Shown one piece after another: positions 17,557 to 26,993 of a stretch of DNA of 64,000 nucleotides. The number at the start of each line of letters is the position of its first letter. The first letter of the stretch is position 1. A program made the position numbers and the translations under genes. Source of the DNA: Nonomuraea polychroma (GTDB lineage Bacteria > Actinomycetota > Actinomycetes > Streptosporangiales > Streptosporangiaceae); contig NZ_SAUN01000001.1 in the NCBI RefSeq assembly GCF_004011505.1, positions 6,351,501 through 6,415,500 of the forward strand. The letters are read 5' to 3'. The notes beneath the pieces were generated by a model, which was not told the DNA's origin, did not search any database, and saw only the letters and a list, made by a program, of their open reading frames with translations.

Positions 17557-17578
17557 GGCAAGGAGAGGAGTGCACGCG

Positions 17579-18568
17579 ATGACACCTGCACCGAGCACAC
17601 CTGCACCGAGCTCTACTGCCGCCAGGGAACGCGACGAGCGGGTCGCGAACCGCAGCGCCTACGAAGCGGTCATCGAACGCCTCTCGAAGGCGTCGGTCGA
17701 CAAACACTGGGAGCCGTACCGGGACATCCCGTGGGACGATCCGGAGTTCCTGGTGGACCCTGCCGACCCGCGGTGGGAGCTGCCCGAGGTGGACAAGCTC
17801 GGCGGCCATCCCTGGTACCGCAGCCGTCCTCCGGAGGTGCGCGCCACGATCGGGTTGTGGCGGGTGGCCACCGCCATGAAGATCGGGCTGCAGTTCGAGA
17901 ACCTGCTCAAGCGCGGCCTGCTCAACTACGCCTACCGGTTGCCGAACGGGTCGCCCGAGTTCCGGTACGTCTACCACGAGACCATCGAAGAGGGACATCA
18001 CGGGATGATGTTCCAGGAGTTCGTGAACCGTACCGGTCTGCCGATCCGCGGCATGCCGGGGCCGCTGTCGGCGGTCGCCCAGGTGGCGCCGTGGATCCCG
18101 CTGATCTCGACCGAGCTGTTCTTCGTGTTCGTGCTGGGCGGCGAGGACCCGATCGACCACGTGCAGCGCAAGGTGCTGAAGGACGGCCGGGCGCACCACC
18201 CGCTCGAAGAGACGATCATGCGCATCCACATCGCGGAGGAGGCCAGGCACATCTCGTTCGCCCGGCACTACCTGCGTGACCGGGTGCCCCGGATGCCCGC
18301 GTACCGGCGCTTCATGCTCGGCATCGCCGCGCCGATCGTCCTCGGCGTGATGGCCCGCATCATGCTGGCGCCTCCGCTCGCGATGATCAAGCACTTCAGG
18401 ATCCCCTCGAACGTGGTCTCCGAGGTCTACCTGCGCAACACGGCCGCCAAGAACGAGATCCGCGAGTCCGTCGGCAAGACACGGGAGCTGTGCGCCGAGC
18501 TGGGGCTGGTCAACGCGCTCACCCGGCGGATCTGGCGAGCCATGGGGATCTGGGCGGATCCGCACTGA
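17579..18568 (+). CDS. AurF-like di-iron oxygenase
   Basis: About 329 residues of the di-iron oxygenase family related to p-aminobenzoate N-oxygenase AurF. Two carboxylate/His iron-ligand helices are visible: YHETIEEGHHGMMFQEF (about 140-156) and IHIAEEARHISFARHYL (about 220-236), giving the ExxH-type ligand sets. Such enzymes are ferritin-like and use O2; in this genomic setting the substrate could be an amine or a lipid, which the sequence does not reveal. AGGAG lies 8 nt before the ATG at 17579; a GTG three codons earlier is possible. Follows the TetR gene by 63 bp. Confidence 0.72.
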   Translation: MTPAPSTPAPSSTAARERDERVANRSAYEAVIERLSKASVDKHWEPYRDIPWDDPEFLVDPADPRWELPEVDKLGGHPWYRSRPPEVRATIGLWRVATAMKIGLQFENLLKRGLLNYAYRLPNGSPEFRYVYHETIEEGHHGMMFQEFVNRTGLPIRGMPGPLSAVAQVAPWIPLISTELFFVFVLGGEDPIDHVQRKVLKDGRAHHPLEETIMRIHIAEEARHISFARHYLRDRVPRMPAYRRFMLGIAAPIVLGVMARIMLAPPLAMIKHFRIPSNVVSEVYLRNTAAKNEIRESVGKTRELCAELGLVNALTRRIWRAMGIWADPH

Positions 18569-19452: not shown

Positions 19453-20193
19453 TTGAGGCGGCTACTGATGGTCCTGCTGCTCGCCTGCGTCGCGGTGGGG
19501 CTCCTCCCGCCCGCCGCCCACGCGCACAACGTGCTGATCGGCAGCGATCCCAAGGACGGGGCCACGCTGACGGCCTCGCCCGAGCGGGTGACGCTGCTGT
19601 TCGACCAGGCGGTGCGGCAGGGGTACGCGCAGGTGGGCGTGACGGGGGCGGACGGGTCCGCGTGGGCCGACGGGGAGGCGGTGGTCGCCGCCGAGCGCGT
19701 GTCCGTGAAGGTCAAGCCGTTGCCGGCCGGGGGGTCGTACGTGGTGGGGTACCGGATCCTGTCGGCCGACGGCCATCCGGTGACCGGGAAGATCACCTTC
19801 AGGCTGACCGCGGACGCCTCTGGTCAACCGTCCCCCAGCTCCGCCGCCACTGCACCCGGAACCACCGCCGGCGAGATCCCCCAGAGCTCCGGCGCCGACG
19901 CGTCCGGGGCCGGCACCGGGGAGGTCGCCGGAGACTCCAGCGCGGAGGCCACTGAGGCGGCGGCGAACGGCGGGGCCGGGATGGCCGTGGTGTGGATCGT
20001 GGGCGCGCTGCTGGTACTGGCCGCAGGCACGGCCGTGGCCCTACGCCGCGCTCCTTCGCCCCGCACCGCCCCGACCAGCCTCACCGCCCCGACCGGCCTC
20101 ACCGCCACCGCTCCGGGCGGCGAAGCCTACGCACCGGGTGGCAAGCCCGATGAGGCGGCGGGCGACGTGCAGGTGCCTAGGAGGCGGTCGTGA
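19453..20193 (+). CDS. copC: CopC-domain periplasmic-type copper-binding protein with C-terminal membrane anchor
   Basis: A 246-residue secreted protein: signal peptide (about 1-27, cleavage after AHA) leaving His at the new N-terminus, as in CopC proteins where the amino-terminal His binds Cu(II); the partner His is in SADGHPVTG. A Ser/Ala/Thr/Pro-rich spacer follows, then one membrane helix (AVVWIVGALLVLAAGTAVAL) and a short tail, so the protein is probably tethered outside the membrane. TTG at 19453 is preferred because GGAAGG lies 8 nt before it and it supplies the basic residues of the signal peptide; ATG 19468 is the alternative. Overlaps copD by 4 bp. Confidence 0.85.
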   Translation: MRRLLMVLLLACVAVGLLPPAAHAHNVLIGSDPKDGATLTASPERVTLLFDQAVRQGYAQVGVTGADGSAWADGEAVVAAERVSVKVKPLPAGGSYVVGYRILSADGHPVTGKITFRLTADASGQPSPSSAATAPGTTAGEIPQSSGADASGAGTGEVAGDSSAEATEAAANGGAGMAVVWIVGALLVLAAGTAVALRRAPSPRTAPTSLTAPTGLTATAPGGEAYAPGGKPDEAAGDVQVPRRRS

Positions 20194-21221
20194 CGGTCAG
20201 TGCTCCGCCTCTCCCCCGCGAGCGCGTCGGCGGCCGGCTGGTGGCCGGCGGGTTCGGGGTGTGCGCCGTCGTCGCGGCCGTGGCGGCGAGTTCGTTCACC
20301 GGTCAGGAGCCGGTGCCCGGCATTCCCCTGCCGGGTCCCCTCGTGTCGGCGGGCCTGCCGATCGTCCGGGTCCTGCTCGACGTGGCCGCCGTGGCGGTGG
20401 TCGGGCTCAGTCTGCTGCCGAAGCTGCTCGGGTTCGACGACCCCGAGCGTACGGAGCCGGTACTGCTCAGGGTGCGGCCGCTGGCCGTCATGGCCGCCTG
20501 GGCGTGGGCGATCTGCGCCTTGCTGACGATCGTGTTCCAGACGGCGGAGCTGAACCCGGGTGCTGTGCCGACGTTCGGGATGATCGCCGCATATGTCGGC
20601 GATGTCGGCACAGGCCAGGGCCTGCTGTTCAGTGCCGCATGCGCGCTGGCGGCGGCCGGCATCGGGCTGATGGCGGTGCGGTTCGGCGAGAAGGTGCCGG
20701 CCGAACTGCGGGTGATCGTGGCGCTGTTCGGGTTGCTGCCGATCCCCGTCACCGGGCACGCCGTGAACTCGGTCTGGCACGACCCCATCATGGTCTCGAT
20801 GGAGATCCACGTGATGGGCGCGGCGGCGTGGACCGGCGGGCTGGTGGCGACGGCCGTGTTCCTGGCGCCGCACAGGGAGCTCCTGGCCGTGGTGCTGCCG
20901 AAGTTCTCCAGGATGGCGACGGTGTGCCTGCTCCTGGTAGGCCTGTCAGGTCTGATCACCGGGCTGGGCACGATGGCGCTGACGCCGGGTGTGACGTTGC
21001 CCGGCGCGATCGTGACCAGCCCGTACGGAGTGCTGGTGGTGGTCAAGACGGTGCTGGTGGCGGCGTTGGTGCCGCTGGCCGCGCACATCCGGTTCCGTCT
21101 GCTCCCCGCCGTACGCCAGGGCCGGCCCACCGCCCTGGTGGGGTGGGCGGCGGCCGAGGCGTCCGTGATGGGACTGGCTTACGGGGTGGCGGTGGCGATC
21201 ACGCGGGCCTCCATCGTCTGA
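20190..21221 (+). CDS. copD: CopD-domain copper transport membrane protein
   Basis: A 343-residue integral membrane protein with about eight helices and the CopD-type segment MEIHVMGAAAWTGGLVATAVFL, containing the conserved His. It is thought to move copper across the membrane in concert with CopC. Starts at GTG overlapping the copC stop (GTGA), so the two are translationally coupled. Its 3' end overlaps by 43 bp the end of a convergent membrane-protein gene with repeated Asp/His motifs, which may belong to the same copper theme. Confidence 0.85.
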   Translation: MTVSAPPLPRERVGGRLVAGGFGVCAVVAAVAASSFTGQEPVPGIPLPGPLVSAGLPIVRVLLDVAAVAVVGLSLLPKLLGFDDPERTEPVLLRVRPLAVMAAWAWAICALLTIVFQTAELNPGAVPTFGMIAAYVGDVGTGQGLLFSAACALAAAGIGLMAVRFGEKVPAELRVIVALFGLLPIPVTGHAVNSVWHDPIMVSMEIHVMGAAAWTGGLVATAVFLAPHRELLAVVLPKFSRMATVCLLLVGLSGLITGLGTMALTPGVTLPGAIVTSPYGVLVVVKTVLVAALVPLAAHIRFRLLPAVRQGRPTALVGWAAAEASVMGLAYGVAVAITRASIV

Positions 21222-22357
21222 CGGTCGCGTCTCTGCGCGATCCACTCGACGGCCAGCCAAGCGGCCAGCAGGCCGAGCCCGGCCCAGAGGGCGGACGACG
21301 TGGCCAGGGGAGGCGCGCCCAGCAGCCCGTCCTGGCCCGTGGCGGCGCCGTACACCGGACCCATGACCGCGCTCTGCGCCATCAGCGTGCCGTACGCGGC
21401 GGCGGTGGCGCCGACGGCTCCCAGGACGGCGCGCGCCACCGGCATCCGTACCAGGAATGCGACGTCGACCAGGAGCCCGGCCACGATCAAGAAGAACGGC
21501 ACCGCCGACGGCGGGAACCCGGTGAACGTCAGCAGCGGCCAGATCAGCGTCCTGAACCCCACGTAGCCGGCGGCCACGAGGGTGGCCGCGCCGAACCTGC
21601 CGACGAGTAACCGCGCCACGACCAGCACCGACACCCCGGCCACCACCGCGTAGACCGGGTAGAGGAAGTCCGGCACGGGCAGGGCGAAGGCGGTCATCAT
21701 CATCCGGTCCACCGGCCGTCCCATCTGGTCGGCGGCGAACTGGAGCAGGATCGGCTCGGCGTAGGTGGCCCCGTTGTCCCAGGCGCCGATCGACAGGATG
21801 CCGTATTCCTGGTGCTGCTCGGGGAAGTGCACGTTTTCCAGGAAGAACGCGAAGAACGCCCCCAACACGACCGTACGTTCCCTGCCCGGGGGTGCTCCCA
21901 TGAACCAGCCGCGGATCACCCCGGCGATCATGAAGAACGTTCCAACGTACAACATGATGTGCGACGGGCTCCACGAGGTGATGTCGAGCCCGTTGACGCG
22001 GTGGTTGATCAGGTCGAGCGGGACCGCGACGAGGAAGATCCCGGTGCCCCACTGGATCGTCCTGAGCGCGACCTTGTCGACGCCGTAGCCGGTGTAGCCG
22101 TGGATGATCGTCAGTGCGAGTGCGAGGGCCGTGCCGGCGGAGTTGAGCAGGTGCGGCGGGGCGAGGTCGTCACGCAGCCACTTGAAGTGCCACGAGACGT
22201 CCCAGGCCGAGCCGAGCACCTTGAGCGTGAACGCCCCCAGCCAGCCGAAGTAGAGCACTCTGAACAGGTCCTGCGGCGTCTCGCGCCCCGCCTGGCCTCT
22301 GGTCCAGTACGGCAAGGCCCACTCTGCGGCCTTCTTGAACGATGCTGGAGACTTCAC
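21179..22357 (-). CDS. Polytopic membrane protein with duplicated D-x3-H...D...H motif
   Basis: About 392 residues and some ten membrane helices; I do not recognise a named family. Two similar blocks follow each other: WDVSWH ... DD ... PPHLL (D53, H57, D64, H69) and LDLINH ... LD ... SPSHIM (D115, H119, D125, H133), each followed by a hydrophobic helix, which suggests an internal duplication. A third His pair (ENVHFPEQHQE, H177 and H182) comes later. Clustered Asp/His near membrane surfaces fit a metal site, and the gene converges with copC-copD. Start uncertain: GTG 22357 has TAAGAT 8 nt upstream; ATG 22378 lies inside a long inverted repeat. Confidence 0.7.
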   Translation of the reverse strand: MKSPASFKKAAEWALPYWTRGQAGRETPQDLFRVLYFGWLGAFTLKVLGSAWDVSWHFKWLRDDLAPPHLLNSAGTALALALTIIHGYTGYGVDKVALRTIQWGTGIFLVAVPLDLINHRVNGLDITSWSPSHIMLYVGTFFMIAGVIRGWFMGAPPGRERTVVLGAFFAFFLENVHFPEQHQEYGILSIGAWDNGATYAEPILLQFAADQMGRPVDRMMMTAFALPVPDFLYPVYAVVAGVSVLVVARLLVGRFGAATLVAAGYVGFRTLIWPLLTFTGFPPSAVPFFLIVAGLLVDVAFLVRMPVARAVLGAVGATAAAYGTLMAQSAVMGPVYGAATGQDGLLGAPPLATSSALWAGLGLLAAWLAVEWIAQRRDRQTMEARVIATATP

Positions 22358-22365
22358 GGGAACGA

Positions 22366-22371
22366 ATCTTA
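22366..22371 (-). promoter_or_regulatory. Leaderless-type -10 element for the duplicated-motif membrane protein
   Basis: TAAGAT, 8 nt before the GTG at 22357. Confidence 0.4.
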
Positions 22372-22403
22372 CGGTCATCGCGGGGCCGGTCTGCGATGAC
22401 CGT
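22371..22403. terminator. 11-bp perfect inverted repeat (terminator and/or operator)
   Basis: ACGGTCATCGC (22371-22381) and GCGATGACCGT (22393-22403) flank an 11-nt centre. The right arm abuts the stop codon of the methyltransferase (22404-22406) and the left arm touches the -10 of the next gene, so it can be that gene's operator, the methyltransferase terminator, or both. Confidence 0.55.
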
Positions 22404-24029: not shown

Positions 24030-26993
24030 ATGAAGCGTGTGGCCGCGCTGGTAGCGGCACTCGCCCTCATCGGGGTGACGACGTGGCTGGTGTGGCCGTC
24101 GGATCCTGAGGTGCGGGCCCAGGACCAGAAGATAACCGTCGTCGACGGACCAGCCGACGACCAACGGATAGAGCTCGACACGACGTTCTTCCCGCCGCCA
24201 GGGGGCGGGAAGGCGCCTGCCGTGCTGATCGGCCACGGTTTCGGCGGAAGCAAGCAGAGCGTCAGGGAGCAGGCGATCCGCGTCGCGCAGGACGGCTACG
24301 CGGTGCTGACGTGGTCGGCGCGCGGATTCGGCCGCTCGACCGGCGAGATCGCGCTCAACTCGCCCGACTATGAGGTCAAGGACGTCAAGCAGCTGATCGA
24401 CTGGCTGGCCAAGCGTCCCGAGGTCCTGCTCGACGCCACGAACGACCCGCGCGTGGGCATCGTGGGAGGCTCGTACGGCGGCGCCATCGCCCTCATGACG
24501 GCGGCCCACGACCAGCGGGTCGACGCGATCGTGCCGCAGATCACCTGGTCCGACCTGGCCGACGCCCTCTTCCCCAACGCGGCCGTCCAGACTCCCTCGG
24601 CCACGACCACCACGAGCCAGGCCGCCTCGGCCACGACCACCGCCGCCGGCTTGGGACAGCCTGAGAGCGGCGTGTTCAAGCGCATGTGGGCAGGCATCTT
24701 CTTCGGTCAGGGCGTCTCACTGGAGAGCTTCGCGCTGCAGGGCCAGGGGCAGCGGCAGGCGGCCGCGCCGCTGACGCCCCAGCAGGCGCGCTGCGGCAGG
24801 TTCCTGCCGGCGATCTGCGACATCTACCAGCAGGTCGCCAAGGACGGAAAGGCCACACCGGAGGCCGTCGCCCTGCTGCGCAAGTCGAGCCCCATCACCG
24901 TGGCCGGCCAGATCAAGGCGCCCACGCTGCTCCTGCAGGGCCAGCGGGACTCGTTGTTCCCGATCAGCCACGCCGACGCCAACGCCAAGGCGATCGCCGC
25001 CGCCGGCACCCCGGTCAGCCTGGCGTGGTTCGACGGCGGGCACGACGGCGGCAACGGGGAGGCCGACTGGCTCTTCGAGCAGTCCTCGGCCTGGTTCGCC
25101 CGCTATCTGAAGGGCGACGGCTCGGCTCAGACGGCCTCGCCGGTCAGCGCCTTCACGGTGACGCGCGACGGCGGCCGCGACCCCGGCACGCGCCAGCGCA
25201 TCCGCCTGCACCCGGAGGCCGCCTCCTACCCCGGCCTCGCGGGCACCGACACCACGACCGTGGAGCTGAGCGGCCCCGAGCAGAGCATCGTCAACCCGCC
25301 CGGCGGCGCCCCCGCCTCCATCTCGACCGTGCCGGGCATCGGCGGCCTGCTGGGCGGCCAGAACACCGGCGGCATCTCGATCGACATGCCCGGCCAGAGC
25401 GCCGCGTTCGAATCGGCGCCCCTCACCGCCCCGCTCCAGCTGACGGGCAGCACCACAGCCAAGATCACGGTGTCGGGCAAGGGCGAGGCGACGCTGTTCG
25501 CGAAGGTATACGACGTGGCCGACACCACGCAGCCGCCGACCTTGCCCGCCGGGCTGGTGGCGCCCATCCGGGTGACGATCCCGGAGGGCGCAGGCAGCGT
25601 GGAAGCCACGATCACCCTGCCCGCCGTGGACCACCGCTTCGCCGTCGGCCACCGGGTCCGCCTGGTGGTGACCACGACGGACATGGGGTTCGCCACTCCT
25701 GCCGAGCCCGCCACCTATCAGGTGTCGCTGGCCTCCCCCGCCCTCGCCGTCCCGACGGTGCGCACGCTCGCCGCCCCGCCGGCCGGGGTCGCGTGGTGGG
25801 TGTGGGCGATGCCGCTGGCCGCCGTGGTGATCGCCGCCGCCCTGCTGGCGACCGGCCGCGCCTCGACCCTCGCGCCGGCAGGCGCCCGGGTGCGCCGCAG
25901 GGCCGTGCCCACAGCGGACGGCAGCCCGAACGGCCAGAAGCTCGATGCGCTCGATCTCAGCCCCAACGGCCAGACCCACGACACGACCGGCCACACAAAC
26001 GGACACGCGAAGGACGACACGATCGTCCGAGCGACCGGCAGCGCGAAGGACGACTCGGCCGGCCACGCGACCGGCAGCGCGAAGGACGACTCGGCAGGCC
26101 ACGCGACCGACACGACCGCACATGCGCCGCACGGCAGCGATGACCACGACGGGACGGGCAACGGGACTGGCGCGTCGCGGGATGTGCCCGCCGTCGTCAC
26201 CGCCCGAAGCGCCCACGACGACCCGCCCGCACAGGGTGGCGAGCCGGTGCCGCTGGAGATCAGGGGCCTGACGAAGGCTTACAGGAACGGGGAGCCGGCC
26301 GTCGACGGGCTGTCGTTCCGGGTCGAGAAGGGCCAGGTGCTGGGCCTGCTCGGGCCGAACGGCGCGGGCAAGACGACCACGATGCGGATGATGATGGGAC
26401 TCATCCGGCCGGACGACGGCGAGATCCGGATCTTCGGCGACCGGGTGACGCCCGGGGCGCCGGTGCTGTCCAGGCTCGGGTCGTTCGTCGAGGGACCCGG
26501 TTTCCTGCCGCACCTGTCCGGCCGGGACAACATCGAGCTCTACTGGGCCGCCACCGGACGCCCGGCCGCCGACGCGCACTTCGACGAGGCGCTGGAGATC
26601 GCGGGCCTGGGCAAGGCGCTGGAACGTGCCGTACGCACCTACTCCCAGGGCATGCGGCAGCGGCTGGCCATCGCGCAAGCCATGCTTGGACTGCCGGACC
26701 TGCTCGTGCTCGACGAGCCCACCAACGGTCTCGACCCACCCCAGATCAGGGAGATGCGCGAGGTGCTCAAACGCTACGCGCGCGACGGCCGTACCGTGAT
26801 CGTCTCCAGTCACATGCTCGCCGAAGTGGAGCAGACCTGCAGCCACGTCGTGGTCATGCACCGCGGCCGGCTGGTCTCCAGCGGGCCGGTGTCGCGGCTG
26901 CTCACGTCGGCCTCCGCTGGGGCCTCCACCGGCAATGGGCACGGGCCGCGGCTGGAAGACGTGTTCCTCGACCTCATTGGAGACAAGTCATGA
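24030..26993 (+). CDS. Fusion: membrane-anchored S15/CocE-type hydrolase and ABC transporter ATPase
   Basis: A 987-residue protein. Residues 1-22 form a signal anchor; 40 to about 360 an alpha/beta hydrolase with nucleophile S148 (GGSYGG), D307 (GQRDSLFP) and H338 (GGHDGG), followed by a jelly-roll domain as in X-Pro dipeptidyl-peptidase/CocE enzymes (about 370-570). One membrane helix (about 587-607) leads to a repetitive polar linker (about 610-735) and an ABC ATPase (Walker A GPNGAGKT 775-782, signature YSQGMRQR, Walker B LLVLDEPTNGLD). The predicted topology puts the hydrolase outside and the ATPase inside. The permease gene follows with a 4-bp overlap. Export coupled to cleavage is inference. 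Confidence 0.85.
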   Translation: MKRVAALVAALALIGVTTWLVWPSDPEVRAQDQKITVVDGPADDQRIELDTTFFPPPGGGKAPAVLIGHGFGGSKQSVREQAIRVAQDGYAVLTWSARGFGRSTGEIALNSPDYEVKDVKQLIDWLAKRPEVLLDATNDPRVGIVGGSYGGAIALMTAAHDQRVDAIVPQITWSDLADALFPNAAVQTPSATTTTSQAASATTTAAGLGQPESGVFKRMWAGIFFGQGVSLESFALQGQGQRQAAAPLTPQQARCGRFLPAICDIYQQVAKDGKATPEAVALLRKSSPITVAGQIKAPTLLLQGQRDSLFPISHADANAKAIAAAGTPVSLAWFDGGHDGGNGEADWLFEQSSAWFARYLKGDGSAQTASPVSAFTVTRDGGRDPGTRQRIRLHPEAASYPGLAGTDTTTVELSGPEQSIVNPPGGAPASISTVPGIGGLLGGQNTGGISIDMPGQSAAFESAPLTAPLQLTGSTTAKITVSGKGEATLFAKVYDVADTTQPPTLPAGLVAPIRVTIPEGAGSVEATITLPAVDHRFAVGHRVRLVVTTTDMGFATPAEPATYQVSLASPALAVPTVRTLAAPPAGVAWWVWAMPLAAVVIAAALLATGRASTLAPAGARVRRRAVPTADGSPNGQKLDALDLSPNGQTHDTTGHTNGHAKDDTIVRATGSAKDDSAGHATGSAKDDSAGHATDTTAHAPHGSDDHDGTGNGTGASRDVPAVVTARSAHDDPPAQGGEPVPLEIRGLTKAYRNGEPAVDGLSFRVEKGQVLGLLGPNGAGKTTTMRMMMGLIRPDDGEIRIFGDRVTPGAPVLSRLGSFVEGPGFLPHLSGRDNIELYWAATGRPAADAHFDEALEIAGLGKALERAVRTYSQGMRQRLAIAQAMLGLPDLLVLDEPTNGLDPPQIREMREVLKRYARDGRTVIVSSHMLAEVEQTCSHVVVMHRGRLVSSGPVSRLLTSASAGASTGNGHGPRLEDVFLDLIGDKS
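26031..26102 (+). repeat. Two tandem 36-bp repeats inside the linker of the fusion protein
   Basis: Units 26031-26066 and 26067-26102 differ at one base and encode ATGSAKDDSAGH twice; a partial third unit follows. In-frame, so the linker length can vary without breaking the protein. Confidence 0.85.

Follow-up and report, generated by a model that had tools for sequence, protein, structure and literature searches.

What is an unnamed polytopic membrane protein with two Asp/His-rich blocks doing beside copC and copD? The question is raised by a gene in the window, a stretch of 64,000 nucleotides from the genome of the soil actinobacterium Nonomuraea polychroma (GCF_004011505.1; NZ_SAUN01000001.1, positions 6,351,501 to 6,415,500), an assembly of 11.5 Mb in a single contig. 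The reading frame was counted from a GTG codon at 22357 and ends with a TAA stop at 21179-21181; an in-frame ATG at 22378, seven codons 5' of the GTG, is another possible start (Table 1). The closest named relatives of the gene are those of Nonomuraea, where it was present in 35/36 genomes of the genus examined, and its own genome holds one copy (E<=0.001). A Pfam search with the protein gave no family at E<=1, an NCBIfam search gave nothing near a cut-off (the one match, of 13.8 bits, fell well short of its cut-off of 35), and a sequence search of the PDB gave no match at E<=10. In particular, no match to Pfam CopC or CopD was obtained (E<=1), whereas the neighbouring genes do match these families. 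The family is unnamed in the libraries searched, Pfam and NCBIfam, and no description of it was found in titles and abstract openings of the open-access literature.

Table 1. Positions of the target gene, its motif blocks, neighbouring genes and the partners of longer relatives. Numbers without a locus handle are window positions.
Feature	Position	Strand	Remark
Target gene, 392-aa polytopic membrane protein with doubled D-x3-H...H block	21179..22357	-	
Block 1, residues 53-69 (D53, H57, R62, D63, H69)	22151..22201	-	
Block 2, residues 115-133 (D115, H119, G123, D125, P131, H133)	21959..22015	-	
copD-like gene	20190..21221	+	Pfam CopD E 7.1e-14
copC-like gene	19468..20193	+	Pfam CopC E 6.4e-23; runs into copD
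AurF-type (p-aminobenzoate N-oxygenase) gene	17570-18568		Pfam E 3.2e-94; near copC
987-aa ORF	24030-26993		S15-type peptidase/esterase part fused to ABC ATPase
Long-form relative with beta-sandwich (residues 420-530)	L083:289-2064		
Lipoprotein-like gene and ~440-aa membrane protein after long form (example)	L147:8994-9404 and L147:9404-10738		
Loci with lipoprotein-like gene and ~440-aa membrane protein	L143, L145, L147, L148, L149, L152, L155, L163, L165		

The target family is broad. A search with the target alone produced matches in 12/149 genomes of the phylum, and a profile built from 11 distant members (A2) matched in 46/396 actinobacterial genomes, the own genome being included in both counts. 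Most relatives are about 600 aa long; in them the same membrane region precedes a beta-sandwich (residues 420-530 or so) and a final helix. The short group, to which the target belongs, and the long group were aligned over 243 columns with a probability of 98.3%. Structural neighbours of the long-form beta-sandwich in VIA-align were Ig-like and expansin-like domains, and also the copper proteins CrdA of H. pylori and FetP of E. coli (Z 6.6-7.0). At nine loci, eight in family f4 and one in f57, a small lipoprotein-like gene and a gene for a membrane protein of about 440 aa come next after the long form. The lipoprotein has HVH and ELH conserved in 8 aligned sequences and looks cupredoxin-like by eye; the ~440-aa protein belongs to no Pfam family. 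In one genome (G361, with the loci L161 and L149) a long form occurs together with a divergent member of 486 aa, and this divergent member is the family's closest to PmoC. No long-form relatives were found in the viral contigs searched.

The residues of both blocks (D53/H57/D64/H69 and D115/H119/D125/H133) and of a further His pair (H177/H182) were located where the preliminary description had placed them. When the profile of residues 29-93 was compared with that of residues 94-158 using hhalign, a probability of 94% was obtained (E 1.4e-7, score 37.0); the highest score among 200 window-shuffled controls was 22.5, and 0/200 reached 37.0. The two blocks are an internal duplication, as had been supposed from their appearance. 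The pattern [DN]x3Hx(8-12)PxH, present twice at a distance of 40-110 aa, occurred in 153/159 family ORFs versus 2/8587 other ORFs of the same loci and in 0/200,000 shuffled versions of the target sequence. The double motif is far from chance.

Conservation was counted in two alignments. The short-form alignment comprised 81 rows, namely the target and 80 homologues (the best 80 of 175 found), and the distant alignment comprised 41 rows, free of redundancy and all from taxa other than Streptosporangiaceae. Each of the 157 family frames taken as the best of its locus satisfied the double D-x3-H filter, which therefore removed no row before the count. D53, H57, R62, D63, D64, H69 and H86 as well as D115, N118, H119, G123, D125, T127, P131 and H133 were invariant in 81/81 short forms. 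Ten of the positions, D53, H57, R62, H69, D115, H119, G123, D125, P131 and H133, were also invariant in 41/41 distant rows. The expected invariance of the Asp/His residues of the two blocks was thus borne out at every position but D64, whose conservation is limited to the short forms. The part of a conserved second Asp in block 1 is played by D63 instead: it is Asp in 81/81 short forms, and among the 41 distant rows it is Asp in 35 and Glu in 6. H86, H177 and H182 were likewise not kept across the distant rows. His was found at position 177 in 56/81 and at position 182 in 72/81 short forms, and both columns were gaps in nearly all 41 distant rows. Because of this poor conservation, the further His pair that had been pointed out falls outside the core.

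An AlphaFold2 model of the target (mean pLDDT 88.1, pTM 0.88) placed each block in a helix-loop-helix at one membrane face. Block 1 lies at the end of helix 29-60, in the loop and at the start of helix 67-89, and block 2 correspondingly between helices 95-122 and 131-154. The N-terminus, the loop between helices 4 and 5 and the C-terminus carry a net positive charge and both motif loops are neutral, so that the motif loops probably lie on the outer side of the membrane. The suggested placement at the membrane face agrees with the model, the outer side being deduced from the loop charges. D53 and H57 would lie one helical turn apart with H69 at the start of the next helix (putative site 1), and D115 and H119 likewise with H133 (putative site 2). 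From such a set of one Asp, one His and a His of the next helix, one metal ion per unit is plausible.

The target gene is convergent with copC-copD, as had been noted, and its end overlaps that of copD by 43 nt. The likely start of copC is the ATG at 19468; the listed ORF is longer. In Streptosporangiaceae, CopD was found within the fetched stretch at 79/80 and CopC at 75/80 short-form loci, all of them close relatives (best 80 of 175). CopD was missing at L032, a locus truncated by a contig end. The CopC misses at L016, L027, L032 and L033 were contig-end cuts, and L081 was a true miss by the same test. The methyltransferase, TetR, thioesterase and AurF genes of the window occurred at only 21 to 31 of the 80 loci, and an ABC unit at 77/80, inverted in several. 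As other neighbours were lost or inverted and CopD was kept, copCD is the steadiest partner in Streptosporangiaceae. An AurF-type gene lies near copC in the window itself, and a match to the 987-aa ORF was present near the target gene at 77/80 loci.

The association did not extend to the distant relatives. No CopC or CopD was found near the family gene in 40 carrier genomes, many of which are fragmented assemblies; the smallest distance was about 37 kb (G325). A plasmid copy in Mycolicibacterium vanbaalenii JOB5 adjoins CopC, and the same stretch has a Caa3_CtaG-type assembly factor. A Pfam survey of the distant loci, which covered 121/167 listed neighbour proteins, revealed MerR regulators (5/62) and a multicopper oxidase (1/59) and no constant partner. 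The rough gene picker used for neighbours missed the family gene in 2/33 loci, and at no fewer than two loci it took a different gene as its centre (L149, which was excluded, and L151, which was retained). The expected recurrence of copC/copD was hence confirmed for the short forms and failed for the 40 genomes with distant relatives. The copC/copD neighbourhood might accordingly be no more than linkage inherited in one bacterial family and say nothing about function. The close kinship of the 80 loci and the lack of adjacency in the distant relatives speak for this explanation, but the loss or inversion of the other neighbours, set against the retention of CopD in 79 loci, and the distant plasmid copy beside CopC make it rather unlikely. 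Since CopC and CopD adjoin the target, copper is the probable metal. It had been the first guess; the longer relatives lack the link. According to PMC6189053, the pmo/amo operons of some bacteria, including methanotrophs, can encode CopC and CopD.

A known counterpart of the double D/H motif, new in this analysis, appears to be the CuC site of the methane-oxidising enzyme pMMO. The preliminary description knew of no named family with such a layout; Pfam and NCBIfam indeed have none, but block 1 agrees with the CuC motif found in PmoC/AmoC, subunit C of the copper membrane monooxygenases (CuMMO). The CuC ligands of PmoC are Asp156, His160 and His173 according to PMC7584546 and PMC12576850, and in the latter Arg165 makes contact with a water of CuD, where the active site has been proposed to lie. 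PmoC/AmoC sequences from the PDB and from plasmids read D-x-x-W-H-x4-R-D-T-x-F-T-P-x-H. In the target, D53 is followed by H57 (+4), R62 (+9), D63 (+10) and H69 (+16), and in PmoC D156 is followed by H160 (+4), R165 (+9), D166 (+10) and H173 (+17). D53/H57/R62/D63/H69 thus correspond to the CuC triad D-x3-H-x12-H with R and D after the first His, the His-His gap being x11 in the short form and 11-14 across the family.

Profile comparisons were consistent with this correspondence. With small alignments, hhalign against PmoC was weak (22.8% with the long and 3.0% with the short group) but nevertheless placed motif on motif. A deeper family profile scored 33.8 (27.8%) against the PmoC profile; of 501 reversed or shuffled PmoC profiles none reached this value, the best scoring 29.3. 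Block 1 matched the CuC unit with 76.7% and 0/100 nulls as high, and block 2 matched it with 1/100 nulls as high. When, in an independent direction of comparison, 8746 ORFs were searched with the PmoC profile with filters off, the best 15 of 688 scored were all family members, representing 10 distinct genes of which some had been fetched twice or three times. The top ORF was L161 (E 0.0048), and the target ranked 151st of 688 and was aligned away from the motif. With a CuC sub-profile, the family took all of the top 20 places among the 8746 ORFs (counting genes that had been fetched more than once), and each of the twelve alignments viewed sits at block 1. On L161, the best member, Pfam AmoC gave E 0.17 and 0.093 (11.7-13.4 bits against a cut-off of 26.7) and was outranked by a weak match to Pfam FixH (E 0.0095). 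No AmoC match was obtained in the own genome of the target at E<=10. As the target itself has no Pfam AmoC match and is aligned off the motif by the PmoC profile, the link to PmoC runs through its relatives.

The likeness of block 2 to the CuD site is suggestive only. The CuD ligands of PmoC, as given in PMC12576850, are Asn227, His231 and His245. Block 2, with D-x3-H-x13-H, has exactly the CuD spacing N-x3-H-x13-H with Asp for Asn. The units are 62-86 residues apart in the family and 71-74 in PmoC, and the double motif was present in 12/13 PmoC. Single HMMER alignments spanned both units in L161 and L167, with His placed on His231 and His245. The profile of block 2 was not significantly similar to the CuD unit (20/100 nulls as high), and of the top 20 ORFs for a CuD sub-profile 4 were family members, none aligned at block 2. 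PmoC itself was also considered as an internal repeat. Comparison of its N-terminal and C-terminal parts gave no profile support, and that of its CuC and CuD units gave 22/100 nulls as high, so that only the spacing pattern hints at a repeat.

The models were also compared with known structures, as had been proposed earlier. Foldseek returned nothing at E<=0.001 for the target or for a 592-aa relative (pLDDT 87.3, pTM 0.89) against the PDB, and nothing at E<=0.001 against viral models. VIA-align ranked the PmoA chain 7s4l_B first for the target (Z 10.5, rmsd 4.4, 181 residues, model residues 154-384), followed by the unrelated chain 4akk_A (Z 10.1). For the long form, seven PmoA/AmoA chains held ranks 1-7 with Z 11.2 to 9.9 and the next row had 7.8, values that are within reach of helical bundles by chance. 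The best-fitting long-form chain was 9cl6_B (rmsd 3.0 over 168 residues); 3rfr_B was taken as a PmoA/AmoA chain on the strength of 3rfr_J. The PmoA registers differed, covering residues 154-384 in the short and 44-391 in the long model, and most rmsd values were 4.4-7.3. As the VIA lists hold the best chain per entry among the top 1000 of Foldseek, the absence of PmoC from them is uninformative. Kinship with PmoA was not borne out by sequence, the hhalign score of 16.5 being equalled or exceeded by 23/150 shuffled profiles; PmoC and PmoA were not significantly similar to each other either (14/150 nulls as high). The predicted fold points to the same enzyme as the motif, via a different subunit, and leaves homology unsettled.

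Partner genes of a CuMMO were looked for in the carrier genomes. PmoB was present in 0/41, with detection in 3/3 genomes that carry the operon as a positive control, AmoC above the cut-off in none of 16, and pmo genes nowhere in the scanned neighbourhood in the window. In the genomes and the neighbourhood covered, the family is not encoded with subunits A and B (xmoCAB). Among 198 actinobacterial genomes sampled, three had PmoC above the cut-off; all three also carry PmoA and PmoB (L093-L095, L252-L254) and are from family f18. Viral contigs of IMG/VR encode many PmoC, with 127/183 candidate stretches confirmed and the best 80 kept (L169-L248).

These results bear on the main rival to a role in copper handling, an oxygen-activating enzyme. 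The protein could be an orphan copper oxygenase or oxidase: oxygen would be activated at the CuC-like sites for the oxidation of a small or lipid-like substrate in the membrane, no PmoB would take part, and in the longer relatives copper or electrons would come from the fused beta-sandwich or from a cupredoxin-like lipoprotein encoded separately. The invariance of the ligand set and of the second-shell residue R62, the equivalent of PmoC Arg165, would suit such an enzyme, as would the CuMMO subunits as top fold neighbours and the HVH/ELH lipoprotein and ~440-aa membrane protein after the long form (8 f4, 1 f57). Since PmoB is absent from the carrier genomes, the CuD unit is not matched significantly and no redox or substrate gene consistently adjoins the family gene, an oxygenase is judged rather unlikely, at about one chance in four.

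A membrane metalloprotein for zinc, iron or manganese, with a CuC-like motif acquired by convergence, is less probable still. In its favour, sets of Asp and His ligands can serve several metals, linkage to copper genes is missing in the longer relatives and the PmoC match is local to the motif. Against it, the residues D, H, R, D, P and H all match at the spacing of PmoC, none of the 501 nulls scored as high, and CopC/CopD were retained where other neighbours were lost or inverted. That the family is a single-chain, PmoB-less CuMMO outgroup with CuC-type sites in both halves, itself a copper oxygenase, and that its layout is ancestral to CuC and CuD of PmoC and perhaps to the PmoA fold, is the least credible of these proposals.

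The most probable reading (about 0.6) is that the target is a stand-alone, two-site membrane copper protein that is remotely related to, or closely mimics, CuMMO subunits; it is supported by the duplication, the invariance of the residues, the motif match to CuC and the gene neighbourhood. Copper binding by the target is likely. One metal ion would be bound at the outer face by each of two helix-loop-helix units that arose by internal duplication. In their construction the units seem to follow the CuC site of PmoC/AmoC; the protein itself is probably distant kin of the CuMMO membrane subunits, rather than a mimic, and would operate without PmoB. In Streptosporangiaceae it would most likely act alongside CopC and CopD in receiving copper outside the cytoplasm or handing it on, and copper handling with these proteins is the task of first choice.

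The identity and origin of the active site of pMMO, CuC or CuD in PmoC, have long been debated, and pMMO is hard to handle because of its three subunits. If the reading of the target as a two-site copper protein is true, a stand-alone protein with two CuC-like sites in culturable actinobacteria would be a simpler object for the study of sites of this kind, and could serve as an outgroup in tracing the origin of the copper monooxygenases. Even if copper handling is its only task, a conserved, unnamed family of membrane metalloproteins in Actinomycetota has been recognised.

Among known systems, CopC and CopD (PF04234, PF05425) are the constant neighbours of the short form, and the target has no match to either. 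The PmoA/AmoA family (PF02461) provided the best-scoring solved chains for both AlphaFold2 models but has no significant sequence similarity to the target family, and the registers differ between the models; D/H/H ligand sets are not known as a feature of PmoA. From PmoC/AmoC (PF04896) the target family differs in its greater length, the lack of PmoA/PmoB genes and scores below the Pfam cut-off, in a His-His gap of 11 in the short form versus 12, and in the Asp of block 2 where the CuD unit has Asn. With PmoC/AmoC, block 1 shares D-x3-H-x4-R-D...P-x-H at a helix-loop-helix, as in CuC, and in either protein the (D/N)-x3-H...P-x-H unit occurs twice, at a distance of about 60-85 residues.
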